Below are positions 8,190-63,955 of a stretch of DNA of 64,000 nt, piece by piece. Under the pieces are notes generated by a model that saw only the letters and a program-made list of their open reading frames with translations, ran no database searches and had not been told where the DNA came from. Source of the stretch: Mycobacteriales bacterium (GTDB taxonomy: Bacteria > Actinomycetota > Actinomycetes > BP-191). The position numbers and the translations under genes are program-made. The stretch spans positions 62,001-126,000 of the forward strand of contig DASTMB010000040.1 in NCBI GenBank assembly GCA_035714365.1. The letters are read 5' to 3'. Each line of letters opens with the position of its first letter. Position 1 is the first letter of the stretch.

Positions 8190-9132
8190 GCACGATCTTG
8201 CCGACGTGCTCGCCGGCGGCCATGACACGGTGCGCCTCGGCGGAGTCGGCGAGCGGCAGCACCCGGTCGACGACCGGCCGCACCCCGCCGTCCTCGACGA
8301 GCGGCCACACGTAGGAGCGGACGTCGTTGACGATCGCGCCCTTCTCCTCGACCGGCCGCGAACGCAGCGACGTCGCCGCGACCGTCGCCCGCTTGGCGAG
8401 CAGCGCGCCGAGGTCGAGCTCGGCCTTGGTGCCGCCCTGGAGGCCGATGACGACGAGGCGCCCGGCGGGCCGCAACGCCGCGACGTTCCGCGCCAGGTAC
8501 TTCGCGCCGAGGATGTCGAGGATGACGTCGGCGCTGACGAGCTCGGCGAAGTCCTCGGTCTCGTAGTCGATGGCCCGGTCGGCGCCGAGGTCGAGGCAGG
8601 CGCGGTGCTTCGCGGCGCGGGCGGTGACGACGACGTGCGCGTCGAGCCGCTTGCCGACCTGGATCGCGAACGTGCCGATCCCGCTGGCGCCGCCGTGCAC
8701 GAGCAGCGTCTCGCCGGGGGCGAGGCGGCCGACGGTGACGACGTTGCTCCACACGGTGCAGGCGGCCTCCGGCAGCGCCGCCGCGGTCACCAGGTCGACG
8801 CCGTGCGGCACCGGCAGGCACTGCGCGGCCGGCACCACCACCCGCGTCGCGTACCCGCCGCCGGCGAGCAGCGCGCAGACCTCGTCGCCGGCGGACCAGC
8901 CGGTCACGCCGTCGCCGACGGCCGCGACGACGCCGGAGCACTCCAGGCCCATGACGTCGGACGCGCCGGGCGGCGGCGGGTAGAACCCCTGGCGCTGCAA
9001 CAGGTCCGCGCGGTTGACGCCCGCCGCGGCCACGTCGACCAGCACCTCGCCCGGGCCCGGCACCGGGTCGGGCACCTCGGCGAGCCGCAGCACCTCGGGG
9101 CCGCCGAACCCGTCGAGAACGATCGCCCGCAC
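8179..9132 (-). CDS. NAD(P)H-quinone oxidoreductase, zinc-independent MDR family
   Basis: A 317-residue medium-chain dehydrogenase/reductase. The N-terminal GroES-like domain has AAGVNRADLLQRQGFYPPPP near residue 37, and the Rossmann domain has LLVHGGASGIGTFAIQV near 140. The catalytic-zinc cysteine/histidine set is absent, as in the quinone oxidoreductase/PIG3-like branch, which reduces quinones or other alpha,beta-unsaturated carbonyls with NADPH. Length is typical. The stop overlaps the convergent GNAT gene by 11 bp. It lies 10 bp downstream of the phosphotransferase-like gene on the same strand. Confidence 0.9.
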   Translation of the reverse strand: MRAIVLDGFGGPEVLRLAEVPDPVPGPGEVLVDVAAAGVNRADLLQRQGFYPPPPGASDVMGLECSGVVAAVGDGVTGWSAGDEVCALLAGGGYATRVVVPAAQCLPVPHGVDLVTAAALPEAACTVWSNVVTVGRLAPGETLLVHGGASGIGTFAIQVGKRLDAHVVVTARAAKHRACLDLGADRAIDYETEDFAELVSADVILDILGAKYLARNVAALRPAGRLVVIGLQGGTKAELDLGALLAKRATVAATSLRSRPVEEKGAIVNDVRSYVWPLVEDGGVRPVVDRVLPLADSAEAHRVMAAGEHVGKIVLSA

Positions 9133-9142
9133 GCCGTGCAGC

Positions 9143-9994
9143 CTAGAGCGCGGCCAGGCACTCCGCCGCGTCGCCGAACTCCGCCTCCTCGTGCGCGATG
9201 CCCAGCTCGGCCGCCCACACCAGCCCCTCGACCGCCTGCGCCAGCGCCCAGCCGCGCGCCCGCGCCGGGTCGATGCCGGTGACCTCGGTGACGATCGCCA
9301 GCCGCCGCGCGGCGTTCTCCGGCGTCACCCGGTCGCGCAGCACCGCCGCGAGGTCGTACGCCGGGTCGCCCGCCTTCGGCTTCGGGTCGATCGCGAGCCA
9401 CGGGCGGCGCTGCGCGCGGAGCACGTTGCCCGGGTGCAGGTCGCCGTGCAGCAGCATCGGCTCCCCCTCGTACCTCCCCGGCAACGCCGCCAGCGCGGCG
9501 TCGCGCAGCCGCGGCGGCGCTGCGGCGATGCGCGCGGCCCAGTCGGCCGCGACCGCGTCGGTGCTGCGCAGGCCGGGCGGCGCGGGCCGCCACCAGGTCC
9601 GCAGGATCTCCGCGACGCCGCGCGCCGCGACCTCGTCCGGCTCGTCCAGCAACGGCGTGCCCGGCTCGCAGCGTTCCAGCAGCAACGCCTCGCCGTCGGA
9701 CTCGTAGAGCAGCACCGCGCCGTCGCCGGCGACGTGCCGCAGCCCCACCGCCTCGTCCGGCGCGCCGTCCTCCGGCACCCGCACCTTGAGCACGGCGGGC
9801 GTGCCGTCGGCGCGCGTCACCCGCACCGCGAGCGCGGTCATCCCGCTCGGCTGGTACGGCTCGCCCACCTCCAGCGACCAGCGTTCCGCCAGGGCCGCGA
9901 CGGTCGACGGCAGCGCGGCGAGCCACGCGGCACCGGCGTCGCCGGCCCAGCCGGTGACCGTGCGGACGAGGTCGTCAGGAACGCGCAGCGGCAC
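9143..9994 (-). CDS. Aminoglycoside/hydroxyurea phosphotransferase family kinase
   Basis: A 283-residue APH-fold kinase. The catalytic loop reads LLHGDLHPGNVL (about residues 178-189), with D183 as the expected base, followed by LAIDPKPKAGDPAYDLA, the metal-binding aspartate region of the APH(6)/hydroxyurea-phosphotransferase branch. Members phosphorylate streptomycin-like aminoglycosides or unknown small hydroxyl substrates. Sequence alone does not show antibiotic resistance, and the housekeeping context argues for a metabolic role. It starts at GTG 9994, overlapping the hydrolase gene upstream by 20 bp, and sits 10 bp before the quinone oxidoreductase, suggesting a three-gene operon. Confidence 0.85.
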   Translation of the reverse strand: MPLRVPDDLVRTVTGWAGDAGAAWLAALPSTVAALAERWSLEVGEPYQPSGMTALAVRVTRADGTPAVLKVRVPEDGAPDEAVGLRHVAGDGAVLLYESDGEALLLERCEPGTPLLDEPDEVAARGVAEILRTWWRPAPPGLRSTDAVAADWAARIAAAPPRLRDAALAALPGRYEGEPMLLHGDLHPGNVLRAQRRPWLAIDPKPKAGDPAYDLAAVLRDRVTPENAARRLAIVTEVTGIDPARARGWALAQAVEGLVWAAELGIAHEEAEFGDAAECLAAL

Positions 9995-49300: not shown

Positions 49301-49390
49301 GGAGGCTTCGCCTAGTCCGGTCTATGGCGCCGCACTGCTAATGCGGTTTGGGGTAACCCCCCATCCCGGGTTCAAATCCCGGAGCCTCCG
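49301..49390 (+). tRNA. tRNA-Ser(GCU)
   Basis: A 90-nt class II tRNA. The acceptor stem GGAGGCT pairs with AGCCTCC (49383-49389), with discriminator G. The anticodon stem-loop CCGCACTGCTAATGCGG gives anticodon GCT. There is a long variable arm (TTTGGGGTAACCCCCC), and the T-arm is CCGGGTTCAAATCCCGG. The 3' half is the apparent attachment site of the island that follows: a degenerate copy occurs at about 61505-61575. Confidence 0.95.
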
Positions 49391-49995
49391 CTCTGACCTG
49401 CGGTTTCGCGTCGGCTACGCCGCGCTCGCCGCAGGTTCTCGGCTCCGGAACCGCGTGCGGTCACACCGCGGTCACACAGCCTCCTTCCCGGTCTGTCCGC
49501 CCTCGTCCGGTGCCGTCCCGGCCTGTTCGTTCCGGCTCCGGTGGGCGCCGAGTCGAACACCGCCGCGATCTGCTCCGCCGCCTTGCGGTTGACCGCGCTG
49601 TCGACGTAGACGTAGCGGTCGGCGGTGAACCAGGTGGACGAGTGCCCGGCGCGGGCGCTGACGACCTTGAGCAGCACTCCGGCCAGCAGAGCCAGGGTGA
49701 TCGACACGTGCCGGGTGTCGGGGAACCGGATCACCGGGACGCCCGCCTGGCGGCAGAGCGTCTGGAAGTGCCGGCTCACGTAGTCCGGGTTGAGCGGCGT
49801 GCCGTCAGCGTTGACGTACACCAGCCCGGTCTCCACCCACGCCTCGCCCGCCGCCGCGCATTCCGCCTCCTGCTCGGCGCGGTGCTCCGCGAGGACGGCC
49901 GACATCACGTCGTCGAGCGCGATCTCGCGGCTGCCCGCCTTCGTCTTCGGCGGACCGACGACGGCCCAGCAGACGTTAAGTTGCGGACTCGCCAC
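49372..49995 (-). pseudogene. 5'-truncated tyrosine-family integrase
   Basis: A 207-codon frame corresponding to the C-terminal half of a phage-type integrase. VGPPKTKAGSREIALDD begins mid-domain; the SAM-like DNA-binding and first catalytic Arg regions are absent. The RxxR-box reads RFPDTRHVSITLALLAGV, where the usual HDLRH His is Pro. GHSS and the nucleophile context DRYVYV are kept. The frame runs on past the normal end (CDRGVTARG) and stops inside tRNA-Ser. With half the protein and a catalytic His missing, it should be inactive. Confidence 0.8.
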
Positions 49996-50016
49996 GAAAC
50001 GCGTCAGACCTTAACC

Positions 50017-53000
50017 CTAATCCCTAATCATATCCGCAAATGCGCGATCGCCGGGCCCTGGATTGAAGATCGACGGTGACATCACGGGATCCCCATTCGC
50101 CTTGGCCACCTCGCGCGCAAGATCGTTCATATGCCGGACCCGGCCAGACGCATCCTCTACGTTGAGTACCGCTCTAGCGGCCGACCTAACCAGGTGGGCG
50201 AGTGCCATCCCGCGAGTTCCGAACCGGTCCAGGTCCAGAGTCTCCAACCTGCTCAGGACAAGTTGGTCGACCATACTAATGTCAACGCGCCAATGGCGCA
50301 TCGTCGCTTGTGCTGGAGTTATGACGGCGTGCAGGTAAGCCAATGTGAGAACGTGTACTTCCCCGATCCGACTATCGTCGCCTGACAGGATCTGATCCAG
50401 AAGGTATGTGAGCGCCTGCCGTGCATGGTCGAGGCTCAAACCAAGTTCGTCCAAATCATTATACATCACAGAAAGGCGGATCGCCGCATTAAGCACGATC
50501 TCGCCGCAGGTCGCACTCGAGAAAGGGCTACAGGTGTCGGCTGCGTACCGAAAGCACTCGATTGCCTTTGCCGGTTCAGCGCCACTTGCATACACCAACC
50601 CGGCAGTCATGGCGAGCATGCCTAGTTTCCCAGCGTGATCCGCTACTTCAACCGACCACAGTTGCTTTGCCACCTCGAGCGCCTCGGCGCTCTCACGCTT
50701 TGCGGAGTCGAGGTCACTTCTTGATCCATGCAGGATTGAGAGGCGATGTAGCGCGTCCACGAGCAGCGTACGGTCTCTTGCACTCGCGCTGCCGAAGTCC
50801 CGCACTGCGGCGACTGCGCTTTCCGCCAGTCCAACCGCTAGGTGATGATCGACGTAGGAAGCGAGCGCGAGCTTGGTGGACGCTTGCGCATACCAATCCT
50901 CTTTCTGTGCCAAGTCCAGTTGTAGTTCAAACAGTTCTGCCTGAACTTCGTTAGCTCGATCGTCCAGGCCGAGTTCAAGGTAAAGCAGCGACAACTCATG
51001 TAGCACATAACAAGTGTTGCTTACGGACGCTGTTGTCTCGTTTTCGCGTAACCAGTCTCGGAGGCTGCTGGCGTCGAATCTCTCAAGCACTTGCGCAACC
51101 GAGTCGACGAGGAAGCCCGCAGCTTCTAATATCCGTCCTAGTGACCTAAGACACCTCGACAGCACGAGGGCGGATTGAAGAAAGAGCTCCGCAAAGTCTT
51201 CGTTCGCCGGATCTTTAAACAGGGCCTCCGACAGTGCGAACGCCGGCTCGGCCGCGATGAGTGCGTTTTCGGGTTGCCCCGCTTGTGCGCTGTGGACCGC
51301 GATGCCCCGCAAAAGGTCGAATGTGCGCAAACCAGATGCCGTTCCTGGCGTCCGGGTCCGGTTGTACTCATTCGATAGGGCGACCGCGACGAGGTAGGAC
51401 GCCGAGGACGACTCGGCTGACCACTCGAACGGGTCTCCCAGGTCGACATCAGGCAACTCTCGCAACAGCAGTCCGAGAGCCAGCCGCGCCAGATCATCGT
51501 CTCGTCCGTCCTCGGTATCCCCTCGCAGTAGCGCGTCAAAGTCTCGCGACAGATGAGGCTCCAGTACGGCCCCGACATCACCTTGAAGCGACACGTCATC
51601 TTCGAGGACTTGTGCAAGACGAATGCAAGTATGTGGCACATGTAACCACGTCAGCAAGTGCCACCACTTCGCAATCTGTGTTACCTCGTCTCGTATTACG
51701 TCTCGGCAGAACTGATCCGCCACCGAGTCCACGAGAAACAGCGCGCTCCGCTGGCGCTCGCGTCGAGCCCAAGAGCGAACCGCCTCAGCGACTGCTTGGT
51801 TGTTTATTCCCCACGCGGAAAGTAGTTCGACAGCACTAACCTCAAGGAGGCTGGGTGCGCATATGGCAGCCACCAAGAGCTGGCGCAGCGTATGGCGGGG
51901 AAGATCGATCCGATCCTCGGCGGCGCTATTTGCCAGAACCCTGAACTCGTCTTCAGATATCTCACGCAATCGTCGACTACGGTCCTCGCTCGCTGTCAGC
52001 GCAGATAGGCATGCATCCAGCGCCGAGGCAACCTGGTCTGGCGCCCGCCGAGGTGTTCGACTGCCCAATCCCACTTCCTCGGCCGCGCGTTTCGCGACGC
52101 TGGATAGCTCGCGCAATGTTTGTCGCGAGAGCGGAACCGCGCCCAAGTCAACCTGCGTCGCATCTGCAACCGCTGCTGCCCCTTCTGCGAATCCGTTCAA
52201 CATTGAGACGGCCTCCGCGCGGCCATGTCGGCTCAGAAGCAATATCTTCAGCGGAGCCACCGGCTGGAGAGTGAAAGCCAACTCAAGTAACAGTTGCACC
52301 GCAACTAGATTCCGCTCAAAGTCGTCAACGACGACGCAGACCGGCCGGCGCGCGGAGAGCAGAGATGCCAACGCATCCCGACCAGCGGCCGATGCAAGGA
52401 GCCCCGCGATCCACCCCTCCTCCTGAAGAAGTAAGCCGGCCTCGACCGCGAGGCGCGTCTTTCCCTGGCCCGGCGGTCCAACTACCATCGCCAGTGGGCT
52501 TGATCGTTGTTGTGCCCACGCGAGCAAGTCGGCCATCTCAACGTCACGTCCGACGAACGGCACTGCTGCGAAGCGTGGGAGCAGAAAGGCTGCAGCAGTA
52601 ACTGTGTTTGGAAGGGGAACCAAAAGCGGTGTTAGCGGCGACACTGAAGCAATGCTGGCGACGGCTTCGGTAAGCGCCGCTGCGAACTCGCTACGCTCGC
52701 GCACCAAATCGCCCGGCAACGCGACAAGGCGAGAAACTACTTCGTGAAGCGCTAGGATCCCGCGCTCTACACGTACGGTCGTAAAGAACGCCACCGTTTC
52801 CGCAGACGACATCTGCGATGCGAGGGCGACCCACAACGCGTTCAACGTGCTTTCCGCCCGACCAGGCGAGGCAGTCTCCAGCACGTACTCGCTGATCGAC
52901 TGAAGAAACTCTGCGGGTCCGCACTCCGGTGACTCGATTAACGCCGCGAGTTCGCCGCCGTTCAGCGCGCGGTCAAGCCGCTCAAGTTCCGTGTCGGACA

Positions 53001-53148
53001 GCAGCTCTGGCTCCAAGAGCCGCACCGTCTCAACCGCAGACGCGTGCCAGTCCGAGTCAGGTGACGCGCGTCTGCGCAACAACTCTGCAAGTTGCCATGC
53101 TCTCTCCGCCGCGAACCCGAGCGCGACACCGGTCAACTCCGCATCCAT
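50017..53148 (-). CDS. Island-borne STAND-type NTPase with helical-repeat C terminus
   Basis: A 1043-residue protein. Residues 1-170 are an all-helical N-terminal domain of unknown type (ELLSDTELERLDRALNGGEL, AEFLQSISEYVLETA). An NTPase follows: PFVGRDVEMADLLAWAQQ, P-loop MVVGPPGQGKTRLAVEAG near 226 and Walker B VCVVVDDFERN near 272. Residues 560-1000 are TPR-like helical hairpins (RTLLVDALHRLSILHGSRSD, LGMLAMTAGLVYASGAEPAK), much more diverged from one another than those of the STAND gene at 17.5 kb. The architecture fits bacterial NLR-like sensors. GC is well below the genome norm. No effector domain or partner gene is recognisable. Confidence 0.75.
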   Translation of the reverse strand: MDAELTGVALGFAAERAWQLAELLRRRASPDSDWHASAVETVRLLEPELLSDTELERLDRALNGGELAALIESPECGPAEFLQSISEYVLETASPGRAESTLNALWVALASQMSSAETVAFFTTVRVERGILALHEVVSRLVALPGDLVRERSEFAAALTEAVASIASVSPLTPLLVPLPNTVTAAAFLLPRFAAVPFVGRDVEMADLLAWAQQRSSPLAMVVGPPGQGKTRLAVEAGLLLQEEGWIAGLLASAAGRDALASLLSARRPVCVVVDDFERNLVAVQLLLELAFTLQPVAPLKILLLSRHGRAEAVSMLNGFAEGAAAVADATQVDLGAVPLSRQTLRELSSVAKRAAEEVGLGSRTPRRAPDQVASALDACLSALTASEDRSRRLREISEDEFRVLANSAAEDRIDLPRHTLRQLLVAAICAPSLLEVSAVELLSAWGINNQAVAEAVRSWARRERQRSALFLVDSVADQFCRDVIRDEVTQIAKWWHLLTWLHVPHTCIRLAQVLEDDVSLQGDVGAVLEPHLSRDFDALLRGDTEDGRDDDLARLALGLLLRELPDVDLGDPFEWSAESSSASYLVAVALSNEYNRTRTPGTASGLRTFDLLRGIAVHSAQAGQPENALIAAEPAFALSEALFKDPANEDFAELFLQSALVLSRCLRSLGRILEAAGFLVDSVAQVLERFDASSLRDWLRENETTASVSNTCYVLHELSLLYLELGLDDRANEVQAELFELQLDLAQKEDWYAQASTKLALASYVDHHLAVGLAESAVAAVRDFGSASARDRTLLVDALHRLSILHGSRSDLDSAKRESAEALEVAKQLWSVEVADHAGKLGMLAMTAGLVYASGAEPAKAIECFRYAADTCSPFSSATCGEIVLNAAIRLSVMYNDLDELGLSLDHARQALTYLLDQILSGDDSRIGEVHVLTLAYLHAVITPAQATMRHWRVDISMVDQLVLSRLETLDLDRFGTRGMALAHLVRSAARAVLNVEDASGRVRHMNDLAREVAKANGDPVMSPSIFNPGPGDRAFADMIRD

Positions 53149-53824
53149 AGCACGAGACTAGGCCGCGCGCCTGGCAACCGGCATGTCTTGTCCCAACTTT
53201 GGTATAGGCGGCGCGCGCATGACTGCTCCCGCGCTTCCCCGGTGTACCTCGTGTCCGCTGGTGTGGAAGGCTCTCGTAGCGCAGTCGGCCGCGCATCACC
53301 GTCGGCGTGCGACCCGCATCCATCCCGTGTCCGCGCTATCCATCCGTGGTCGAGTCGCACTCGGCGGCCTAGCGCGCAAGGCCCTTGGGAACAAGGATTC
53401 GGCGGCCGGCCCTGGCGCAGGGTTCGGCATTCACGTACGGCTGCGAACGCGAGCCCGCGAGGATCCTGAGAAGTCGTGCTGTCTCGTCGGGGTGTGGTCG
53501 CGTCGCTCGTCGGTCTGTGGTCGCGACCGTGCGCGCTCGTACCCTCGGGACGCCGCGCCGGTGGAACCTGCGGGCGCGTGTCGATCCGCGGCGCGTGCAA
53601 CGGCAGGCTTGCTGTCCGGGTCCACCCCGCGCCCGGCCTGATGCGGCAGCACGAAGATCGCGATATCAACACAGCACGCGAAAGTCATGATGGCGTCGCA
53701 GTCGCCGCAAACGTACTTACGCAGCGGCTCCCACGGGTTCAACAACCTGACCGTCGAGTGCGCGCAGCCCGTCATGCCGGACATCCTCGCGCTGCGCTCC
53801 CGATGGTGCCCTCGGGTTTCGCGC
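53149..53824. other. 676-bp degenerate interval inside the island
   Basis: No intact gene is supported. The 53431-53784 frame (listed separately) is the only one with protein-like sequence. A short minus-strand frame near 53375-53440 reads VNAEPCARAGRRILVPKGLA and may be another remnant. GC rises from left to right across the interval, marking a junction between the low-GC STAND segment and the high-GC remainder of the island. Confidence 0.4.
53431..53784 (-). pseudogene. Fragment of a Cys/His-rich hypothetical protein
   Basis: The first 50 residues look real: TGCAHSTVRLLNPWEPLRKY, then VCGDCDAIMTFACC and IFVLPHQAGRG, a CxxC/His-containing pattern resembling small zinc-binding island proteins of about 200-250 residues. 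Beyond about residue 65 the sequence becomes Arg/Thr/Asp-rich and unprotein-like, as expected after a frameshift. I judge it a truncated or decayed gene; the family name is unknown. Confidence 0.4.
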
Positions 53825-55366
53825 TCAGCCCGCGACCTCAGAGTTCGCAGCCTCGCCGAGGTTAGCGACGGTCACTCGTGTGCGCCGCCGAGACGCGAGC
53901 CGCTGACGTTCCTCCGCAGGTAGTTCAGCGGCCGGATCGGGCTCGGACAGGACGAGCTCGGCGTTGCTCGCGAACGCACCGAGGTCATCAGCGCTGACCG
54001 TGTCTTGCAGCGTGTCCCACGCGTCCACGACGTCGACGAACTCCCACAGATGATTTCGCGCCGCGATGGGCGCGTCGTCGCCGGCGCGCAACGGGGCCAA
54101 GTCGCGGACCACGTCCCGCCACGGCCTACCGGCGAGGGGCGGCGACCACCTCCTTGTCGCCGTCGCTGTCGTCGCGCCAAGCGCCGGCCAGCAGCAGCGG
54201 CGCCAGCGTCGCCGCGGCTGGCCCGGAGGCCCACGCGGGCGCACCCAGGCTGCCGCGGCCGATCCGGCGCCGCAGTGACGTGAGGCTGCGCCGGGCGCCG
54301 CGAGCCAGTTCGTCCGCCTCGGCGAACGGCACGCCTTGGGCCTCCCAGGCCCGTCGGGCATCGAGCCGGTCTAGCGGGGGCAGTTCGGTGTCGCCGGCGC
54401 GAGCCCGACGTGCCAGGACGACGTGATGGCCGGCGCGTAGCGCGGCGGGGACGTTTGCGTCGGGGAACGCCGGGACCAGGATCATCGGCTGGTCGTAGAT
54501 GACGCAGCGCCGCCAGCCCGCCTCGTCGTGCACCACCAGGGTGCGTTCGGCCAGGGCCTCCCGGCTGGCGTCGACCGGCACGGCGGTCGCGGTGACCAGC
54601 TCCTCAGCCGACGGTGTCGCATCATCTGCCGGCGGCGCGGCGAGCTCGGGTGGACGTGGATCGAGGGTGGGCGCAAGCAGGGTCGCCGCGAGGAACGCGA
54701 TCCCTTCCTCGCGGCTGGGCGCCGGAATGTCGTACTCGCGCGCAGGATCGACCAGGGCGGCCGCCAGAGAATAGGCTTGCGGCAGACGGCCAGCTAGGAG
54801 CAGATCGACGGCAGTGCAGGCTCGGTCTCGTCGCGCCAGTCCTCGATCCACCGAGCGAGCGGCGTGACCCCGTAGGGCTGCCGCCCGAGCACCTCGGAGA
54901 ACCGCGCGCGGACGCCGGGGAGCGTCTCCAGCCAGATCGCGAGTGCATCGGCGTCCAGCGCGACAACCCCGAGCCAGCCGTCGCCGCCGTCGGCCCTATC
55001 CTTCGCCCACGCGGTCGCGTCCACCCACAGACGGGACGTCACGAAGACGAACGTCGTGCGTTCCCGTTCCTCGCGCGGAAGTTGCTCCGTCCGCTTCTTG
55101 TAGTCCTCAGCGGCCTTGCCGGCCGGGTCCGCGCCGGTACCCGCCTCCCACACCGACCGGCCCGCAGGCACGAATGGCGGCGCTCCCCCGATGACCTCCA
55201 CGACACCGTCGAAGCCCGGTGCACCGACACCCTCCGCGGACGGGAAGCGAATGCTAGACGGTACGACGGTGGCCATGATGGCGGCCCGGAGCGAGGGCAG
55301 ATGACCCTGGGCATGCCGGTACCCCGACCAGGTGTCGAGGTCCTTCGCGGTGATGAGTTCATCCAT
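53825..55366 (-). pseudogene. Decayed large island gene in three frames
   Basis: Three overlapping minus-strand frames join into one protein. Frame A (55366 to about 54800) opens MDELITAKDLDTWSGYRHAQ and contains PGFDGVVEVIGGAPPFVPAG, then TTFVFVTSRLWVDATAWA, the N terminus of a large actinobacterial protein family with a nuclease- or STAND-like plan. Frame B (about 54810 to 54126) continues with VDLLLAGRLPQAYSLAAALV and IAFLAATLLAPTLDP. Frame C (about 54130 to 53825) continues RPWRDVVRDLAPLRAGDDAP to a stop. Two indels, near 54800 and 54130, are needed. Intact relatives are, from memory, well over 1000 residues, so the 3' part is probably also lost. Confidence 0.65.
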
Positions 55367-55597
55367 GTCGCATCGCTCCCTGCCGCGTCCATTGTCTTCC
55401 AGAGCGGTTACGCCTCTGTGCTCCGGTCGCATCCCGAGGGCGTTCCCGCAACCGGGCGGTCGGCGCCGAAGGCGCTATTCGCTGTGTGGCCTTTCCACGA
55501 ACGTCGCCGGCGACGCGGCAATCTGTTACGAAAATGGCGCTACGACAGCTGCGTAAACCCCCCGGCGCGATGTTGTAGACCACACCCTCTACGGCGA

Positions 55598-57178
55598 TCA
55601 CCGCGACACACCCCGAGCGCCAGCGTCATCGCCGCCGGCCGAACGCCGAGCTCCCACCCGTCGCAGCCGACGATCCACAACGGTGCCGAGCCGCGTGCGA
55701 AGCCCGTAGAGGAGGTCACCGACCGCCCGGGCAAGCCGCAGGGCCCACGCCCGTTCGGCCGCCTGACGAGTGGCACGCCGCAATTCCGCGGCGGCGTGGC
55801 GTCCCGTGACGCTCAGCGCGTGGTCGCCGTCGGCCGTCATCGCCTCGACCGGGCACGTGGGCCGGGTCGCGACGTCAATGTGCTCCAAGGTGTGCGTGCT
55901 CAACAGGTACTGCAACGGCCCGGGTTCGCCAAGCCCGCCAGGTGCGACGGTCAGGCTGACGTACTGCGCCAGCAGTGTCGCCGCCGCGCTAATGGACAAC
56001 GCCGCGACGTTCTCACCGCGGTCACCGCCTGCTCCGAGGCCAGCGATGTACGTCGGGTCCTCGAGGTCGCCGGCGCGGTCGGCCGTGACCGCAGCCAGGT
56101 CGAGTTGGCCGTTGCACGCGAGGCAGGGTCGCCCGGGACGCACGACGTGTGAGCGCCAAGTCGCCCCGCGCATGCCGTCTCCGTCGGGGAACGCGTCCAC
56201 GCCGATGCCACCATCGATGACTGGGATGAGGTGGGCATAAGCCACTGCGTTAAGGACTGCGCGAGCCCACGGCCGGTCGACGCAGCTGAAGATCAAGTCG
56301 TAGTCGAGTGCCTGCGCGAGCCCGGCAGGCTCGCAGACGCTCAGCTCAGAGGTCTCGAGCTGCAGGCCCGAGGCGGTCGCGTTGAGGACGACGAGGCGGC
56401 CGACGACCGCGACCTTCGATCGGCGCAGCCAGGCGTCGAGCGCTGTTGCGCCGATCATCCGGTCGAGGTTGCGCTCCTCGACGGTGTCGAAGTCCATCAA
56501 GCCGATGCGCGTGACACCGGTCGCCGCGAGCCGTACGGCGATGTCGAGCCCTACTGAGCCAGCGCCGACGACGAGCGTGGCCCGTCGGGTGAGGTCGCGG
56601 TGCATCCGCTCGCCCCACGAGGCGACGGCACGCACCTGGCTGCGCCGCGAGGGGGGCGGCGGGACGAGGGCGTCGTTCCAGGTCACGGTCAACCTGTCGC
56701 CTAGCACGCGGACGTTCTCCACGTCCGTTTCCTGCACGTCTCGGCCGGTGCCGCGATCCCAGTGACGGGCAGCCCAGGAATGGTCGCCAGCGAGGGTCAT
56801 GCCGACTAGAGGGAGCCCGGTGATCTCCCGGGCCAGGTTCGCGAACGCCGTTTCGGCGTCCCGGTCAGGCGAGCTCATCGCCTGCCAACCGCGACCGCCC
56901 GGGTGGCTGTGGGCGAGAATGAGCCCGCAGCCATCCTCCTGCGCGATCCCCGCTGCGCGCAGGATGTAGTTGCCGGTGATCGACGCATTGCCGTGCACCG
57001 CGCGCTCACCCGGCTCCGGCAGGACGAGGTGGCGCACCAGCGCGGTGCGCCGGGTCGCCCCAGTAGACGGGCGGTACGTCGCGAGGCAGATGTCCTCCTG
57101 CCCGTCGTTGCGGAGCAGATGCCGCGCGAGCGCGGCGTGGGTCTCGGCGGTCATAGCTACCGACGTTCGCCACGTCAT
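55598..57178 (-). CDS. JAB deubiquitinase-like plus E1/ThiF-like fusion protein
   Basis: A 526-residue fusion. Residues 1-150 are a JAB/MPN metalloprotease domain with the JAMM motif LAHSHPGGRGWQAMSSPDRD near 83-103 (HxH, then Ser and Asp). Residues about 185-470 are a ThiF/E1 domain: nucleotide loop LVVGAGSVGLDIAVRLAATG, LMDFDTVEERNLDRMIGA, and a Cys pair in RPCLACNGQ as candidate thiolation or zinc residues. JAB would trim or remove a Ub-like protein and E1 would adenylate it. ATG 57178 gives a 4-bp ATGA overlap with the E2-like gene. It is third in a coupled Ub-E2-JAB/E1 operon. Confidence 0.85.
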   Translation of the reverse strand: MTWRTSVAMTAETHAALARHLLRNDGQEDICLATYRPSTGATRRTALVRHLVLPEPGERAVHGNASITGNYILRAAGIAQEDGCGLILAHSHPGGRGWQAMSSPDRDAETAFANLAREITGLPLVGMTLAGDHSWAARHWDRGTGRDVQETDVENVRVLGDRLTVTWNDALVPPPPSRRSQVRAVASWGERMHRDLTRRATLVVGAGSVGLDIAVRLAATGVTRIGLMDFDTVEERNLDRMIGATALDAWLRRSKVAVVGRLVVLNATASGLQLETSELSVCEPAGLAQALDYDLIFSCVDRPWARAVLNAVAYAHLIPVIDGGIGVDAFPDGDGMRGATWRSHVVRPGRPCLACNGQLDLAAVTADRAGDLEDPTYIAGLGAGGDRGENVAALSISAAATLLAQYVSLTVAPGGLGEPGPLQYLLSTHTLEHIDVATRPTCPVEAMTADGDHALSVTGRHAAAELRRATRQAAERAWALRLARAVGDLLYGLRTRLGTVVDRRLRRVGARRSAGGDDAGARGVSR

Positions 57179-57525
57179 CGGGCGGTTCCGAGCACGCCGC
57201 GGACGTGGGCGACCCACGCCCGCTCGGGGTAGGCGTCCCCGCCCCAGCCGCGAACCTGCCTCGAATGGCGGACCCAGCCGGTCCGGCCAGACGCCTGGCT
57301 GTTGGTGGCGGGCAGGGTCACGGCCGCCGGCAAGTGGATCCAATGCGGCGGAACCATCGGCCAGCCGGCGAGCTCGGCGACTTCGACCGCAGTCTCCACG
57401 AGCTCGCCGGCGTGGCGACCCTCCACCGGCTCGACGCGGTAGAGGACGAGCCCGTCGCGAACCTCGGGCTCGGTGCCCTGCCGAAGCAGGCCGTCGACAA
57501 AGGCCGCCACGGGCTCGCCACTCAT
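57175..57525 (-). CDS. Prokaryotic E2 family E-like protein
   Basis: A 116-residue protein matching the prokaryotic family-E E2-like fold. The central GWPMVPPHWIHLPAAVTLP strand region is followed by TNSQASGRTGWVRHSRQVRG and WVAHVRGVLGTA. There is no cysteine anywhere in the protein, so thioester transfer by a classical E2 mechanism is impossible; conserved His residues occupy the likely active-site area. It overlaps both neighbours by 4 bp, implying strict co-production with the Ub-like protein and the JAB-E1. Confidence 0.75.
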   Translation of the reverse strand: MSGEPVAAFVDGLLRQGTEPEVRDGLVLYRVEPVEGRHAGELVETAVEVAELAGWPMVPPHWIHLPAAVTLPATNSQASGRTGWVRHSRQVRGWGGDAYPERAWVAHVRGVLGTAR

Positions 57526-57773
57526 GCCACGTCGGCGTTCTGCCGGATGGTGACGAAGCGTGCGCCGGGGTGGATCTGCACGAGCTCGTCGTCGGCGTAA
57601 CGGGCCGGCTCGGGCCGCTGGCCGCGCAGCTCGCCAAGGTCGTACAGGGCCGGGTCGACCCCGGCGAGGCGCAGCAGGTCGGCGGCGGGCTGCCGCCGGT
57701 CGCGCGTCTCGTAGCCCCGGCCGTCGATCGTGAAGGCGACGGCGGGCCGCAGCTCCGTCGGCTTGTCGTTCAT
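57522..57773 (-). CDS. Ubiquitin-like (multiubiquitin-family) protein
   Basis: An 83-residue single-domain protein from ATG 57773, preceded by GAGAGGAGACC. The layout is beta-grasp-like: VAFTIDGRGYETRDRRQ, then a helix PAADLLRLAGVDPALYDLGE, and DDELVQIHPGARFVTIRQNA, the pattern of the multiubiquitin (PF14452-type) domain. It ends in ADVA and lacks a C-terminal Gly-Gly, so it either is not conjugated in the usual way or needs no processing at that end. It is first gene of the operon and divergent from the sigma-like gene. Confidence 0.7.
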   Translation of the reverse strand: MNDKPTELRPAVAFTIDGRGYETRDRRQPAADLLRLAGVDPALYDLGELRGQRPEPARYADDELVQIHPGARFVTIRQNADVA

Positions 57774-57843
57774 GGTGGTCTCCTCTCGCACCGAGCGGCG
57801 GTTTCCTCCCGGTTGCCTAGTTGTCTGGCTGGCAGGGCCTCGT

Positions 57844-57877
57844 GAAAGTCCGCGGCGACTTCGGAAACGGGACTTTC
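57844..57877. promoter_or_regulatory. Inverted repeat between divergent island operons
   Basis: GAAAGTCC at 57844-57851 and GGACTTTC at 57870-57877 are perfect 8-bp arms around an 18-bp spacer, in the 125-bp gap between the Ub-like operon (start 57773) and the sigma-like operon (start 57899). The layout suits a shared operator, but no -10/-35 pair is convincing. The right arm lies 22 bp from the ATG. Confidence 0.45.
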
Positions 57878-57898
57878 GTCGTCGGCGAAGAAGGAGAC

Positions 57899-58573
57899 AT
57901 GGTGGGTGAGATGGCCGAACACGCGAGCCCCGCCCCCCGCAGCCACCCGCTGCTCGACGACAGTGCGCGGCTGGCGACGATCAAGGACGTCATGCACGTA
58001 CGGATCCAGCAGGTGCTGTTCGGCCGACCGACCGGCGACGACGTCGAACGCGTGCTCCCGGGAGGGGCATCGGTTGACGACGTCCTGCAGGAAGCATTGC
58101 TCGCGCTGCTCCGGACCGACCCGAAGAAGGTCCGGGTCTCGTGGGAGGCGCTCGCCAGCCGGATTGCCAGCAACAAGGCGAAGGACGCGCTCACGAAGGC
58201 GACGGCCGGCCGGCGGGACCCGAGGGCGGAAGCTGGCAGCCCGGACGCCGTGACCTTGGTGCCGCTGGAAAAGGTCGGTGAGGCGGCGGACGTCCGTCCC
58301 GGGAGCAATCCGGAGGAGGCCTTCGAGCTGGCTCAGCGGCAGGTGGTCATCCGACGACTGGCGCGGGAGACCCTCACCGACCGAGAGCGCCTGATCTTCT
58401 CCTCGGGCTACTACAAGACACAGTCGTATCGCGAGGTCGGCAAGCAGCTGGGGATCACCGGCACGGCGGTCGGGCAGCAGTTCGCCCGCATACTGAGGGA
58501 TCTCTACGCCGCCGCTCTGAGCGATCCGATGTTCCCGCCGCTCACTGAGAGCGACGGAGGGGAGCACACATGA
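57899..58573 (+). CDS. Sigma-70-family-like factor
   Basis: A 224-residue protein with a sigma region 2-like helix set (SVDDVLQEALLALLRTDPKK, then WEALASRIASNKAKDALTKA) and a region 4-like HTH (LTDRERLIFSSGYYKTQSYR, then EVGKQLGITGTAVGQQFARI). Both core-binding and -35-binding elements are recognisable, though region 2 is atypical. ATG 57899 is chosen for the upstream AAGGAG. The stop overlaps the next gene by 4 bp (ATGA). A dedicated sigma-like factor in a three-gene operon with an SMC-like ATPase is unusual; it may control its own locus and the divergent Ub-like operon. Confidence 0.75.
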   Translation: MVGEMAEHASPAPRSHPLLDDSARLATIKDVMHVRIQQVLFGRPTGDDVERVLPGGASVDDVLQEALLALLRTDPKKVRVSWEALASRIASNKAKDALTKATAGRRDPRAEAGSPDAVTLVPLEKVGEAADVRPGSNPEEAFELAQRQVVIRRLARETLTDRERLIFSSGYYKTQSYREVGKQLGITGTAVGQQFARILRDLYAAALSDPMFPPLTESDGGEHT

Positions 58574-59430
58574 ACGGCAACCACGACGCTGTCGACGATG
58601 TCATCGCGGCGTTTTCAGACCACCTTGCACATGGGAGCCCGCGTCCGACGCTCGATCACCTCGACGCGCAGGACCGCCAGCTCGCCGAGGACCTCATGAG
58701 GCTGATGGAGTCCGCCCGCGGGATCGACCCGTCGGCGTCGGCACCGTCGCTCGAGGCCCTGCTCGCCGGCACCGAGTTCGCCGCTGCCCTGGCGCCTGCG
58801 ACGCCGGGACAGCGACCGATCCTGGACCAGGTGCAGGACGTGCTCACCGGCGTGGACTCCCGTGTGGAGGTGCATGTCGACGACAGTGGCTTTGTCACCA
58901 TGTCGTACCTCGACCTGGTCGCACACTTCCACCTGGTCGACGACGAAGCCCCGTCACTCCCGGACGATGCGATCAGGAAACTGTTCGACGCCGATGTCGA
59001 CGTTGACCTCCTCGGGATCGTGGCGACACGAGCAGCCGACCTCGATGTCCGCGTCGTCTCGCGTTACGACGTCGACAGGACGATCTCGACATCCGCGCAT
59101 CGCCCCGTCACGCCCACCTCGCCGTCCGTGCTCCCGCTCGCTCTCGCAGCGCGTGCGATCTTGGAACACAGCGCGCCGGAGTGGGGAGAGTTCGGTCTCG
59201 AACGCGCTGCCCTCGACACCGTCGATATCGCCGATCTCCAGACGGAGATCGCCGCCCGCATCGTGACCGAGGAGGCCAAACGGCGGTACCAGGGCGACAA
59301 AGCGCTCGCCTATCGCGGCTGCGTCGGGCACGAACAGCGCCTCGTGGAGCTCGTTGCGACAGGCACTCGGCAAGGAGAATCCGTCGACCTTGAGGCCGCG
59401 GTCGAACGTCTCGCCAGGCAGGTCGCGTGA
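58570..59430 (+). CDS. Hypothetical protein coupled to the sigma-like gene
   Basis: A 286-residue soluble protein. Its position right after a sigma-like factor and its acidic N-terminal helices (DDVIAAFSDHLAHGSPRPTL, then AEDLMRLMESARGI) would fit an anti-sigma or partner protein, but it lacks the ZAS HxxxCxxC motif and any transmembrane helix. The middle is alpha/beta (RVEVHVDDSGFVTMSYLDLV). The last third (EEAKRRYQGDKALAYRGCVG) is helical. It is coupled on both sides by 4-bp overlaps. No family recognised. Confidence 0.65.
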   Translation: MNGNHDAVDDVIAAFSDHLAHGSPRPTLDHLDAQDRQLAEDLMRLMESARGIDPSASAPSLEALLAGTEFAAALAPATPGQRPILDQVQDVLTGVDSRVEVHVDDSGFVTMSYLDLVAHFHLVDDEAPSLPDDAIRKLFDADVDVDLLGIVATRAADLDVRVVSRYDVDRTISTSAHRPVTPTSPSVLPLALAARAILEHSAPEWGEFGLERAALDTVDIADLQTEIAARIVTEEAKRRYQGDKALAYRGCVGHEQRLVELVATGTRQGESVDLEAAVERLARQVA

Positions 59431-61286
59431 TCCGCAGACTGCAATTACGCGGCTGGCGCTCGTTCGAGGAGCAGTCCCTTGAGGTCGGGCCCGGCGTCAC
59501 GTTCGTGCTGGCCGAGAACGGTGTCGGGAAGACGTCGCTGATCGAGGCCGCCGCATGGGGCGTGTACGGCGACCTCTCCGGGGTTGATGCAGTGGCAGCT
59601 CGCCGCATCGGCACGGACGACACAAGCGTTGAGGTCGATGTGGAGTTGCCCGACCGCCGGGTGCTTACGATCCGACGCGCGATCGGTGTGGGTCGCGAAC
59701 CCAGCGTCGAGGTGACGCTTGGCGGCGACGCCGTCGATCCGCAGAAGGTCGACGCCGTGCTGGCCGAGGCATTCGGAGCATCGGCCGACTTCCTCGCCCG
59801 CACCACGACGGTGCCGAGCAGCGCAGTGACGGACGAGCGGGTAGGCGCCTTCGCGCTGCACGAACACCTCTGTCGCGTGCTCGGCGTCGATGACCTGAAC
59901 AGGGTCGCGGACCAACTGGAGCAGATCCACGACGAGAACGAGGCGGAGGCGAAGGGATTCCGCTCGGCGTCACGGCGGGCTACTGCCGATCTCGCTGCCC
60001 TGACCGGTCAGCTCGCCGCCGCGGAAGAAGAGCTCGCGGCGCTCGAAGAGCAGCGGGCCGGGTTGCGTAGCGATCTTGAGCACGCCGAAGAGCACCTGCG
60101 GCAAGCCCGGCGACACGCCGAGACAACCCAGCGCGTCGCCGCGGCGCGTGCCGCGTTCGAGGTGGCTCGGGCCGCCGCGGAGGCCGTTGTGCCTGCGTCG
60201 ACGCTGGACGACGTGCATTCGATCGATGAGCTTGTGCGGGTGCTTGAGGACGCCGAGCGGTCCGCGCTCACCGCAACCGACGAGCTGCGTCAGGCGCTCG
60301 CGGGCATCGCTGGCCGCATCGAGTCGATCACGGGTGCGGCGGCGGAGCTCGACACCGCAGCCGGAGACTGCCCGGTCTGCCGACGTCCGATGAGCGACGA
60401 GGACGTCCTGCACGCTCGGCGCAGTCACGAAGCGGACCTGGCTGCGCTGCAGCAAGATCGCGCCACCCGCCAGGCCCGCCTTGGGCAGACGAGTCAGCAA
60501 CTCGACGCGGTACGCGCCGTGCTCCGGCAAGCGCTAGCGGTCCCGTCACCCCCCGCGCAGTTGCCAAGCGGCGGCGATTTGGACGTCGACACCGCGCGCG
60601 CCGGGGTCGACGAGGTTCGTGTACGTCACGACGACCTCTCCGAGGAGGTGGCCGCCGCGCGGGCCATGCGGACGACCCTGGCGGAGCGGATCGCCGCCGA
60701 ACGCGCTGCCGCGGGCGAACAGCAAGCGTCCTTGCACGTGCACCGCAAGGCTGCCGTGTCACGCATGGGCGCTCTGATCGCCCGGGAGACCGCAAACCGG
60801 CTACTCGAGGAGCGCATCGACCCGTTGGCAGCCGAGGTCCGCTCGCGTTGGAAGCGCGTCTTCGGCGACCGCGGCGCGCTGCAGCTCGGTGCCAACGGCC
60901 GCCTCACGCTCCGGCGTGGTGTTGACGACATCCCGTTCGAGTACCTGTCCAGCGGGGAGAAGGTCGTCGCGCTGCTGGCCGTCCGATTGCTCGTACTCGG
61001 ATCCTCGACGCGCGCGTCCTTCCTGTGGCTGGATGAGCCACTGGAACACCTCGACCCGCGCAACCGCCGGCTCGCCGCGTCGCTCATGTCTGCAGCGGGT
61101 ACGCAGGTGCGCCAGGTCCTCGTGACGACGTACGAGGAGGACCTAGCGCGCCAACTCGCGCGCCGGAAACAGGCCTCGATTCTGCGCGTGCAGTCCGCGG
61201 ATGAGACCTGGTTGCCCTCTACGTTTACGGCGCCTGCCCCTGACCCCGAACGGGCCCGCTGGGTCCGAGGACGTCGCGTGGAGTAA
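59427..61286 (+). CDS. Rad50/SbcC-like AAA ATPase with zinc-hook-like motif
   Basis: A 619-residue SMC-like protein from GTG 59427. The N-terminal Walker A is LAENGVGKTSLIEAAAWG near residue 29. Two coiled-coil arms (about 165-270 and 330-470) flank CPVCRRPM near 315, a CxxC like the Rad50 hook. The C-terminal lobe has the ABC signature LSSGEKVVALLAVRLLVLG near 507, Walker B FLWLDEPLEHLD near 531 and a switch TTYEEDLA. It is shorter than true SbcC, like overcoming-lysogenisation/defence-type SMC proteins. No SbcD nuclease gene is beside it; the neighbours are the sigma-like and unknown genes. Confidence 0.85.
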   Translation: MIRRLQLRGWRSFEEQSLEVGPGVTFVLAENGVGKTSLIEAAAWGVYGDLSGVDAVAARRIGTDDTSVEVDVELPDRRVLTIRRAIGVGREPSVEVTLGGDAVDPQKVDAVLAEAFGASADFLARTTTVPSSAVTDERVGAFALHEHLCRVLGVDDLNRVADQLEQIHDENEAEAKGFRSASRRATADLAALTGQLAAAEEELAALEEQRAGLRSDLEHAEEHLRQARRHAETTQRVAAARAAFEVARAAAEAVVPASTLDDVHSIDELVRVLEDAERSALTATDELRQALAGIAGRIESITGAAAELDTAAGDCPVCRRPMSDEDVLHARRSHEADLAALQQDRATRQARLGQTSQQLDAVRAVLRQALAVPSPPAQLPSGGDLDVDTARAGVDEVRVRHDDLSEEVAAARAMRTTLAERIAAERAAAGEQQASLHVHRKAAVSRMGALIARETANRLLEERIDPLAAEVRSRWKRVFGDRGALQLGANGRLTLRRGVDDIPFEYLSSGEKVVALLAVRLLVLGSSTRASFLWLDEPLEHLDPRNRRLAASLMSAAGTQVRQVLVTTYEEDLARQLARRKQASILRVQSADETWLPSTFTAPAPDPERARWVRGRRVE

Positions 61287-61329
61287 CGGTAGCGCCCGCC
61301 CCTCCGAGAAGCGCCTTCCACCAGGTTGA

Positions 61330-61480
61330 ACGGGTGACGGCTGGAGGCCTGGACGGGGTCACACGGTGGTCACACGTCGCCCTGACCGCGCTGCTGACAG
61401 GACGGCTCCGGACGACGGACGACTCCGTGTAGATGTGCGCGCCAAGGGGGGTGTCAGCAACTGCCGAAGGACCACAACGA
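61330..61480 (-). pseudogene. Possible second integrase C-terminal remnant
   Basis: The minus-strand frame reads AHIYTESSVVRSRPVSSAVR, then ATCDHRVTPSRPPAV. The TCDHRVTPS segment parallels CDRGVTARG at the end of the integrase by tRNA-Ser(GCU), and a Tyr occurs before it. The nearby GGTCACACGGTGGTCACACG matches the GGTCACA repeats found after both tRNA-Ser genes. The fragment is short and the alignment weak. Confidence 0.35.
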
Positions 61481-61504
61481 ATGAGTGATGCCGGAATGCA
61501 GTTG

Positions 61505-61575
61505 GCGTAACCCCCATACCGGGCTAATCCCGAGCCGGAACCACCGCTCTGACCGGCGGCTTCGCGTCGGCTCTT
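61505..61575 (+). other. Degenerate attachment site resembling the tRNA-Ser(GCU) 3' end
   Basis: Within about 70 bp the sequence follows the tRNA-Ser(GCU) 3' half and its flank: AATGCAGTTGGCGTAAC, CCCCCATACCGGGCTAATCC, then ACCGCTCTGACCGGCGGCTT and CGCGTCGGCT. Several substitutions and small indels in the T-arm mean it cannot fold as a tRNA. I take it as the decayed right attachment site of the island. Confidence 0.65.
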
Positions 61576-62547: not shown

Positions 62548-63955
62548 TCATGCTCCGATCCCGCCGCTTGCGAACGCCTGTAGGTACCGCTTCCGTAGAA
62601 GGTCAACGAGGTGGTCGGGCGACGCCAGGCCGAGCAGGTCGGGCTTCGTGAGCACGACGAGCCGACAGCCCATCGCGGACGCGGCCATGGCAAGCGAGTG
62701 CGCGTACGTTGTGTCCTTGGCGTTGCCGGTCAGCCCCTCCGACGCCGCGACGACGGCCAGCTCGACGCCACGGCTTAGGCAGATGAAGAGGAAGTAACAA
62801 CAGCGTTGCTCTCCAACTTGTGCGAGTAGTTCTTGCACTCCACGAGGAACTTGTCTGGCAACGCTGGGAACCCGCCGGCATTGCTTACCGCGAGATCAAC
62901 CTGCTCAGCCCCGAAGTAGTTCCGGGTGTTAGGGACGACAAGGGTGCCAGGCACGCTTTCGAACAGGAACTGGAGAAGGGCCTCGAACCTCTTGCCCCGC
63001 TCGTCCTCCGTGGGGGCGCTCTCGGCTTCTGTGAGAAGTCGAGAGATGTCATCGGAGAAGGTTGTCAAGGTTGGAGCCGCTTCTCTCCAGGCCGTCTCCA
63101 AGGTAGCCAGCAGCGAGCCCGACGCCTCGATGCTGTCGAGGAGCTCGTCCACCCCCAGCACCACGACCATCGGGACGACGGGCAGCGCAAGGCTCGATCG
63201 GCGAATCTTGTCGAATAGAAGCAGTCCGAGACCGGCTTCTCCTGCAGCACCGCGTACTGCAGGCGTAGGACATCGGAGTGAAGTCTCTTGCTGGGTACCT
63301 CACCGCTCAGGACCTCGATGACAAGAGGTCCAGACCGTGGCAGCCCGGGCACGTTCACGACCAGATCGAACCCCCGGTCGAGCCCGCGAGACGGTGTCGC
63401 CGTGTACGTCTCCGCGCCACTCGCTCGAAACACTTCCGCGGTCCACTCCTCGAGCGCGCGCCCTCTCGTCGCAGCGTCACCAAACCCGCGGACCTTGCGC
63501 AGCTGGTCGCGAAAATGGCGGACATCTATGGGTCGCTCTAGGGCCGGCTTCTCTATGGCACGCGACTCAACCTTCGCTCCGTGTCGAGCGAGGAACAAGC
63601 CCAGGTGGAACCGGAGCGCCTCGGTGTTGCGGACGCCGCCGGGCAGCTCGGCGACTTGAAAGCTCTGCAACGGCGCAGGAAGCTCCACACCAGGGTCGGT
63701 GAGGATCAGGAGAGGGATACCCGCTCCGACGACGAGTCCGACCTCGAAGATCGCCCATGAGCTGATGGTCGACGCGGTCCCTCCGATGACGAGCACCGCA
63801 AGATCCGCGCGGGCGATCTCTGATCGCAGCACCTGTGGCCAACGGGTGCCCACTGGCGTCTCGTCTGTCCTCGATACGTCCGCCGCAAGCTCCCGGAGGA
63901 CAGCCCAGACCTCCGCCAGGTCGCCGACGCCGGAGCCGGTAAGGAAGACACGCAC
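62548..63955 (-). pseudogene. TIR-like plus PD-(D/E)XK nuclease gene broken by two frameshifts
   Basis: Frame A (63955 to about 63250) starts MRVFLTGSGVGDLAEVWAVL and resembles a TIR/nucleoside-deoxyribosyltransferase-like sensor (RADLAVLVIGGTASTISSWA, IFEVGLVVGAGIPLLILTD). Then comes a partial nuclease-like segment (RGFDLVVNVPGLPRSGPLVI). Frame B (about 63260 to 62775) carries GLLLFDKIRRSSLALPVV, then FEALLQFLFESVPG and AEQVDLAVSN, KFLVECKNYSHK, a D...ExK restriction-endonuclease core. Frame C (about 62810 to 62548) ends it with SRGVELAVVAASEGLTGNAK and CRLVVLTKPDLLGLASPDHL. Indels near 63256 and 62810 are needed to restore one roughly 465-residue protein, plausibly a defence nuclease. Confidence 0.7.

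Follow-up and report, generated by a model that had tools for sequence, protein, structure and literature searches.

Bub (bacterial ubiquitination-like) operons encode a ubiquitin-like pathway that was defined only recently and whose purpose is unknown, and the known controllers of these operons are all linked to DNA damage. In a published set of 544 Bub operons, CapW or CapH+CapP is present in 219 and CapK+CapS in 59; all of these controllers are DNA-damage-responsive, and about half of the set has none of them (PMC13373217). According to that study, phage protection by Bub operons is yet to be demonstrated, and Rad50 is unmentioned in its text (PMC13373217). Here we describe a locus in a 64,000-nucleotide stretch of the genome of a Mycobacteriales bacterium (hereafter the window), where a Bub operon stands back to back with genes for a sigma factor, a partner protein (mid) and a Rad50-like ATPase. 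We judge it rather likely that this Bub operon is under a dedicated sigma switch, in which the partner would hold the sigma factor, the ATPase would engage DNA ends and the Bub proteins would tag their targets.

Two divergent operons and the promoters between them

The two divergent operons have three genes each, and all four within-operon junctions are 4-bp overlaps. The inter-operon gap is 137 bp with the sigma start at ATG 57911 and 125 bp with the alternative ATG 57899. The first start fits the promoter better and places the promoter TTTC at -37, a distance that resembles those at two related loci (L057, -37; L152, -39) and on a Mycobacterium avium plasmid (-39). The gap contains an inverted repeat, GAAAGTCC...GGACTTTC, which, as read from its letters, is a pair of putative divergent -35 elements belonging to identical promoters, one per operon. 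The divergent triplets, their overlaps and the repeat had been described in an earlier annotation made from the DNA alone (the sequence-only reading) and are confirmed; its distance of 125 bp holds for the 57899 start.

The genome regulon scans were pattern searches, and each genome was searched with a pattern taken from its locus. The pair found there is thus present by construction, but the lack of further sites is not. With at most one mismatch, GACTTTC-N17-AGACA has exactly two sites in the 3.8-Mb genome, both of them here, and the reversed-pattern control has none. Related genomes gave similar results: GCTTTC-N17-CAACGTA has two genome sites flanking the sigma/Bub gap in G414, GCTTTCGAT-N14-CGACA has two exact genome sites between the sigma and ubiquitin-like (Ub) genes in G745, and the only two GGGTTTCAGA-type genome sites in G569 both lie between the sigma triplet and a gene for Ku. 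Independent relatives, collinear ones among them, have a TTTC-N17-xGAxA element ahead of both operons. TTTC-N17-[CA]GA[CT]A is found within 150 nt ahead of 12 of 20 genes (dinucleotide-shuffle mean 0.03), and the medium promoter pattern has 14 matches at spacer 17 and at most four at any of spacers 12-16 and 18-23. The element was first noticed in some of these sequences, but the site ahead of the Ub gene of locus L016 and the Ku sites described below were found by scanning alone. Both operons are very probably under the common control of this sigma factor; for the Bub operon this is proposed because the locus-private promoter is common to the two, and it agrees with the earlier suggestion that the ubiquitin-like genes have their own sigma factor.

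By homology, the left operon is a Bub operon (BubA-BubB-BubCD), because P0003 resembles BubCD, the model of P0002 resembles BubB and P0001 resembles multiubiquitin PF14452. The Ub-E2-E1 part is of an already known kind; the sequence-only reading had recognised a known bacterial Ub-E2-JAB/E1 cluster but not the Bub family. P0003 is a JAB/JAMM peptidase fused N-terminally to a ThiF/E1 adenylation domain (PF00899, 1.4e-23). Its residues 7-354 match Citrobacter BubCD (PDB 9ea4, E 3.5e-25), and the JAB residues E28, H90-x-H92, S102 and D105 are invariant in the 10 relatives aligned. P0001 is a single Ub-like domain that ends in ...NADVA, without Gly-Gly, and the C-terminal -VA is kept in close relatives (C-termini of 62 relatives compared). 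Its match to PF14452 (Multi_ubiq, E 6.7e-5) lies 1 bit below the curated cut-off, and its profile weakly matches BilA and multi-ubiquitin structures.

The E2-like P0002 has no Pfam match: PF14462 (Prok-E2_E) does not reach it, and the homologue L103 matches Prok-E2_E at 1.6e-4, under the cut-off. Its AlphaFold (AF2) model has a predicted local distance difference test (pLDDT) score of 94, and the best PDB fold match of this model is Citrobacter BubB (9eae_C; Foldseek probability 0.98, E 0.019, template modelling score 0.51). All 41 homologues compared keep P56, H64, S88, H107 and R109. There are zero cysteines in its 116 residues; therefore any covalent step would need a different residue, most obviously S88. 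A subset of BubB-like proteins (L065, L067, L069, L073, L077, L083) has a Cys in a D-C-x-P-G motif, most BubB-like proteins have none, and the family may be changing its catalytic residue.

The right operon begins with a sigma-70 family, extracytoplasmic function (ECF)-like factor, P0004, which has regions 2 and 4. It matches TIGR02937 (sigma70-ECF, 54.5 bits, cut-off 42.9) and the region 4 family PF04545 (2.4e-6, 27.4 versus a cut-off of 24.1), and falls just below the cut-off of 24 for region 2 (PF04542, 22.8). The ATPase P0006 has intact ATP-binding cassette (ABC) motifs (Walker A AENGVGKTS, signature LSSGE, Walker B FLWLDEP) and a zinc hook, CPVC, and matches SMC_N, AAA_23 and the Rad50 zinc hook family (PF04423, 25.4 versus a cut-off of 24.3). 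None of the PADLOC systems matches the locus, and the LmuB, PtuA and mad3 matches to P0006 reflect generic ABC similarity.

The partner protein P0005 has no Pfam or NCBIfam match, and a search across the class with P0005 as the only query matched the window alone, the family being too divergent for single-sequence search. An alignment of 12 family members shows that their common part is the C-terminal ~200 residues. In a genome of the same genus (G002) that has no sigma gene ahead, the homologue is this C-terminal part alone (profile positions 82-297, E 8e-14), followed by the ATPase. In Paractinoplanes (L063), a segment with H-x3-C-x2-C, found in this homologue only, stands in place of the N-terminal part, and the C-terminal part still aligns. 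H-x3-C-x2-C is the pattern of zinc anti-sigma domains. Because the N-terminal domain is gone where sigma is absent and exchanged in L063 while the C-terminal part is kept, we read the partner as a two-domain protein: its N-terminal ~80 residues are probably a sigma-facing (anti-sigma) domain, and its C-terminal ~200 residues would be an ATPase-facing domain that travels with the Rad50-like ATPase. The G002 locus (L017:262-3633) also includes a 255-residue gene that is PIN-like by eye (no Pfam match), an arrangement that recalls the VapKSC variant of CapK+CapS.

Recurrence of the pair and modularity of its parts

When 72,556 plasmids were searched by tblastn with P0005 or P0006, one record matched, the Mycobacterium avium plasmid, where the order Ub-E2-E1-sigma-mid-ATPase is collinear. 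In genome contigs, a search with the E1 alignment gave 80 loci, the set for the neighbourhood counts of relatives, and a Rad50-type ATPase was found at four of them (L057, L058, L063, L094). Beyond the window, six-gene loci are present on the M. avium plasmid and at L057, L058, L063 and L151 (Table 1). A search with a profile of the ATPase alignment covered 397 genomes of the phylum and matched nine besides the window's own, six of which have the triplet without Bub; the other three matches are L151, L152 and L161 (Table 1). G012 has a decayed copy, in which a Ub gene accompanies a fragment of the ATPase.

The E1 tree groups the window with the M. avium plasmid, L057, L058 and L151 in a single clade (Shimodaira-Hasegawa-like approximate likelihood-ratio support 98), which spans metagenome-assembled genomes (MAGs) of Actinomycetota, Acidobacteriota and Pseudomonadota plus the plasmid. 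L063 and L094 are placed elsewhere, and therefore the Rad50-type label requires three changes on the tree. Pairwise identities over the six loci are correlated (E1-sigma 0.90, E1-mid 0.91, E1-ATPase 0.76). The pairing of the two triplets, to which the sequence-only reading had drawn attention, is well borne out: they recur together in distant genomes, in divergent and collinear order, with correlated divergences and a locus-private promoter in common. Neither the E1 nor the ATPase has a close relative among viral contigs and phage records, and a phage-borne origin is unsupported. At L063, an additional open reading frame (8749-9642), PemK/MazF-like by eye (no Pfam match), lies between the Bub and sigma genes on the sigma strand.

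The same reading had taken the six genes as one system and named, as outcomes that would speak against it, occurrence in this strain only or relatives mostly carrying one triplet without the other. The triplets belong together and are not limited to one strain, yet the Rad50 module is missing from 76 of the 80 close Bub relatives, and Bub from about half of the sigma/mid/Rad50 loci. An obligate six-gene system in its simplest form is rejected, since each triplet is also found without the other, and the locus joins two modular parts, a controller and an effector.

Other controllers are more common among the relatives. An ImmA/IrrE-type peptidase is encoded near 57 of the 80 E1 loci, and neither module is within reach of the hidden Markov models (HMMs) at 19. 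The ImmA/IrrE modules appear to be related to CapP. Seven of the 57 loci, for example in Nocardioides, also have a sigma factor and a different middle protein. The collinear order of sigma factor, other middle protein, ImmA/IrrE-type peptidase and Bub was seen at L052:3834-6992, L061, L064, L072, L082, L084, L087 and L098. This combination is a third type of controller ahead of Bub. Rad50 and ImmA/IrrE modules occur together at none of the 80 E1 loci, and the ImmA/IrrE HMM has no match anywhere in the window. The Rad50-type module is therefore a candidate fourth family of Bub controllers, beside the published CapW, CapH+CapP and CapK+CapS. Whether it is also a mechanistically new DNA-damage controller, in which a Rad50-type ATPase would sense DNA ends and, by way of a two-domain partner, act on a dedicated sigma factor that drives Bub or Ku, seems to us evenly balanced.

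Ku genes, the proposed switch and its alternatives

Ku is an end-joining protein that binds DNA ends. Its gene is divergent from the sigma/mid/ATPase triplet in G569 and overlaps the end of the ATPase gene in G745. In another genus, four genomes with the triplet but no Bub genes all carry CTTTCGRYT-N12-TCGATA 71-96 nt ahead of an unlinked Ku gene; the pattern has 20 matches in these genomes versus 3 for the reversed pattern. Ku is the sole target found in all four, and these sites make up a candidate sigma-controlled end-joining regulon. Because Ku, a DNA-end binder, shares the promoter, double-strand breaks are the likeliest signal, and we regard DNA breaks as a fairly likely one. The earlier suggestion that the Rad50-like ATPase senses DNA thus gains a tie to DNA ends, one of linkage through a promoter that Ku has in common; the sensing itself is predicted.

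At rest, the sigma factor would be kept inactive by the N-terminal domain of the partner. The Rad50-like ATPase, in contact with the C-terminal domain of the partner, would engage broken or foreign DNA ends, and sigma would be released. Free sigma would then act on the twin GACTTTC-N17-AGACA promoters, raising its own operon by positive feedback and switching on BubA-BubB-BubCD. Judging from Bub homologues, BubCD would activate the Cys-less modifier/E2 pathway, and cellular or viral targets would be tagged. The switch would be a portable module, the same cassette and promoter controlling Ku in other actinobacteria. Controllers that respond to DNA damage have a precedent on Bub operons (PMC13373217).

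Several observations weigh against this model. The promoter pattern was first read from sequences that later entered the count; the L016 site and those ahead of Ku are the independent ones. For P0005, homology to known anti-sigma families was not detected, its AlphaFold model is poor (pLDDT 44), and its N-terminus does not significantly match the middle protein of the sigma/ImmA-IrrE module (hhalign probability 3%). The P0006 operon has no Mre11/SbcD-type (phosphoesterase) partner gene and P0005 has no nuclease match; we only infer the ligand of the ATPase, because the operon is without such a partner. Finally, the promoter found ahead of Ku also precedes a DrrAB-like ABC exporter operon in three of the four Ku genomes, and another ABC transporter gene as well. 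Because the regulon includes exporter genes, a drug or other stress is also possible as the signal.

The points on P0005 bear on the role of the partner, which could instead be an activator or loader linking the ATPase to a sigma factor that is inactive without it. We consider this possible but doubtful: P0005 is without a recognisable anti-sigma domain and the C-terminal domain accompanies the ATPase also in the absence of sigma, but the partner gene directly follows the sigma gene with a 4-bp overlap, the L063 homologue starts with the zinc anti-sigma pattern, and the N-terminal domain is absent exactly where sigma is absent. Weighing these, we lean towards an anti-sigma role for the partner.

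It is unlikely that the signal is a different stress, for example envelope stress or a drug that binds DNA, with the Rad50-like ATPase acting in a chaperone-like manner in the sigma switch. In the Ku genomes the promoter does precede exporter and transporter genes, but Ku is common to all four genomes and is a divergent partner in G569 and a downstream gene in G745. In addition, a zinc-hook, Rad50-type ATPase suggests DNA ends, and the known Bub controllers answer to DNA damage.

The Bub proteins could themselves be part of the switch, the conjugation of BubA to the partner or sigma, or its release from them, setting sigma free. The two operons are co-inherited and co-regulated and the JAB protease would permit reversible tagging, but the sigma/mid/ATPase module and the same promoter occur beside Ku without Bub genes, and Bub operons pair with very different controllers (PMC13373217), which makes this improbable. 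That the two are neighbours by chance, as unrelated and separately regulated mobile or defence operons within one tRNA-linked island, is very improbable: the locus does share its probable island with a STAND-like gene, decayed genes and the remnant of an integrase, and each triplet is found alone elsewhere, but the operons have locus-private promoters in common and recur in unrelated genomes, divergent and collinear, with one E1 clade and correlated divergence.

Both operons probably belong to a single integrated island, old and about 12 kb long (49301-61572), which is proposed because tRNA-Ser(GCT) and the integrase remnant stand on the left and an imperfect direct repeat of the tRNA-Ser 3' end and flank stands on the right. 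Within it, positions 50017-53148 encode a 1043-residue STAND-like nucleoside triphosphatase with a weak Pfam match only and probable C-terminal helical repeats; its G+C content of about 58-62% is clearly below that of its surroundings, and it is a possible defence gene. A large, frameshifted minus-strand gene (54126-55432) lies between it and the Bub operon; a tRNA-Gly called inside this gene, at 54311-54406, is probably false. At 62548-63955, a minus-strand gene is split over three frames, and its start is TIR- or deoxyribosyltransferase-like by eye (no Pfam match).

Table 1. Features of the window and of the related loci discussed in the text.
Feature	Locus	Position	Strand	Details
tRNA-Ser(GCT), left border of probable island	window	49301..49391	+	
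Integrase remnant	window	49372-49995		
JAB-E1 gene (P0003, BubCD-like)	window	55598..57178	-	PF00899, BubCD homology
E2-like gene (P0002, BubB-like)	window	57175..57525	-	116 residues; AlphaFold model and fold match
Ub-like modifier gene (P0001, BubA-like)	window	57522..57773	-	83 residues; PF14452 match, alignment of relatives
Predicted Bub-operon promoter	window	57822..57851	-	GGACTTTC-N17-AGACA; -35 57844-57851, -10 57822-57826
Predicted sigma-operon promoter	window	57870..57899	+	GGACTTTC-N17-AGACA; -35 57870-57877, -10 57895-57899
Sigma gene (P0004)	window	57911..58573	+	TIGR02937, PF04545
Partner gene (mid, P0005)	window	58570..59430	+	Family alignment; between sigma and ATPase genes
Rad50-like ATPase gene (P0006)	window	59427..61286	+	GTG start, 619 residues
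Right border of probable island	window	61535..61572	+	Decayed att-like repeat of 49379-49416 (38 nt, 89%)
Six genes, collinear	L057			Thermoanaerobaculia MAG
Six genes, divergent	L058			Hyphomicrobiales MAG
Six genes, divergent	L063			Paractinoplanes
ATPase and Bub	L094			Contig end
Six genes, divergent	L151			Same layout as window
Ub and sigma-mid-ATPase-Ku	L152			
Apparently the same locus as L094	L161			
Unlinked Ku gene with promoter	L187	1914-2747		
Unlinked Ku gene with promoter	L189	267-1106		
Unlinked Ku gene with promoter	L192	2493-3338		
Unlinked Ku gene with promoter	L196	154-987		
DrrAB-like exporter operon with promoter	L186	421-2249		
DrrAB-like exporter operon with promoter	L188	1512-3403		
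DrrAB-like exporter operon with promoter	L193	134-1950		

Comparison with known systems

If the model is true, this sigma factor would, to our knowledge, be the first to be gated by an ATPase of the SMC/Rad50 family. Its pairing with a Rad50-like ATPase in one sigma-based controller would then represent a new form of bacterial DNA-break sensing, and Bub would be tied to double-strand-break repair through Ku. The divergent gap offers a two-promoter reporter with which the trigger can be tested directly.

P0006 resembles Rad50/SbcC and short SMC-like ATPases in its ABC head, zinc hook and coiled coil. Unlike Rad50/SbcC, it has only 619 residues, lacks an Mre11/SbcD-type partner gene and is encoded with a sigma factor. 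BilABCD likewise has Ub-like, E2, JAB and E1 components in one operon, but in Bil the JAB and E1 genes are separate and the E2 carries a catalytic Cys (PMC11354881), whereas here JAB and E1 are fused and the E2 is Cys-less.

CapH+CapP, a helix-turn-helix (HTH) repressor with an ImmA/IrrE-type peptidase activated by single-stranded DNA, occupies the same divergent or upstream place beside Bub, and HTH or sigma factors with ImmA/IrrE modules are the usual partners of the close relatives (57 of 80). The window has no pair of HTH repressor and M78 peptidase, and control would be by a sigma factor rather than by repressor cleavage. CapK+CapS, a kinase activated by single-stranded DNA with a STAS repressor, is likewise linked to DNA damage, autoregulated and common to Bub and other operons (PMC13373217). 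A variant of it is coupled to a VapC toxin, and a similar coupling, of the ATPase to a PIN-like gene, is suggested at L017; unlike in CapK+CapS, the neighbouring genes have no Pfam matches to GHKL kinase or STAS-winged HTH families. Finally, the left operon has the same order as Bub of Citrobacter (9ea4, 9eae), with modifier, E2-like protein and JAB-E1 fusion. It differs in its single-domain modifier ending in -VA, and in that a sigma/partner/Rad50-like module takes the place of CapW, CapH+CapP or CapK+CapS.

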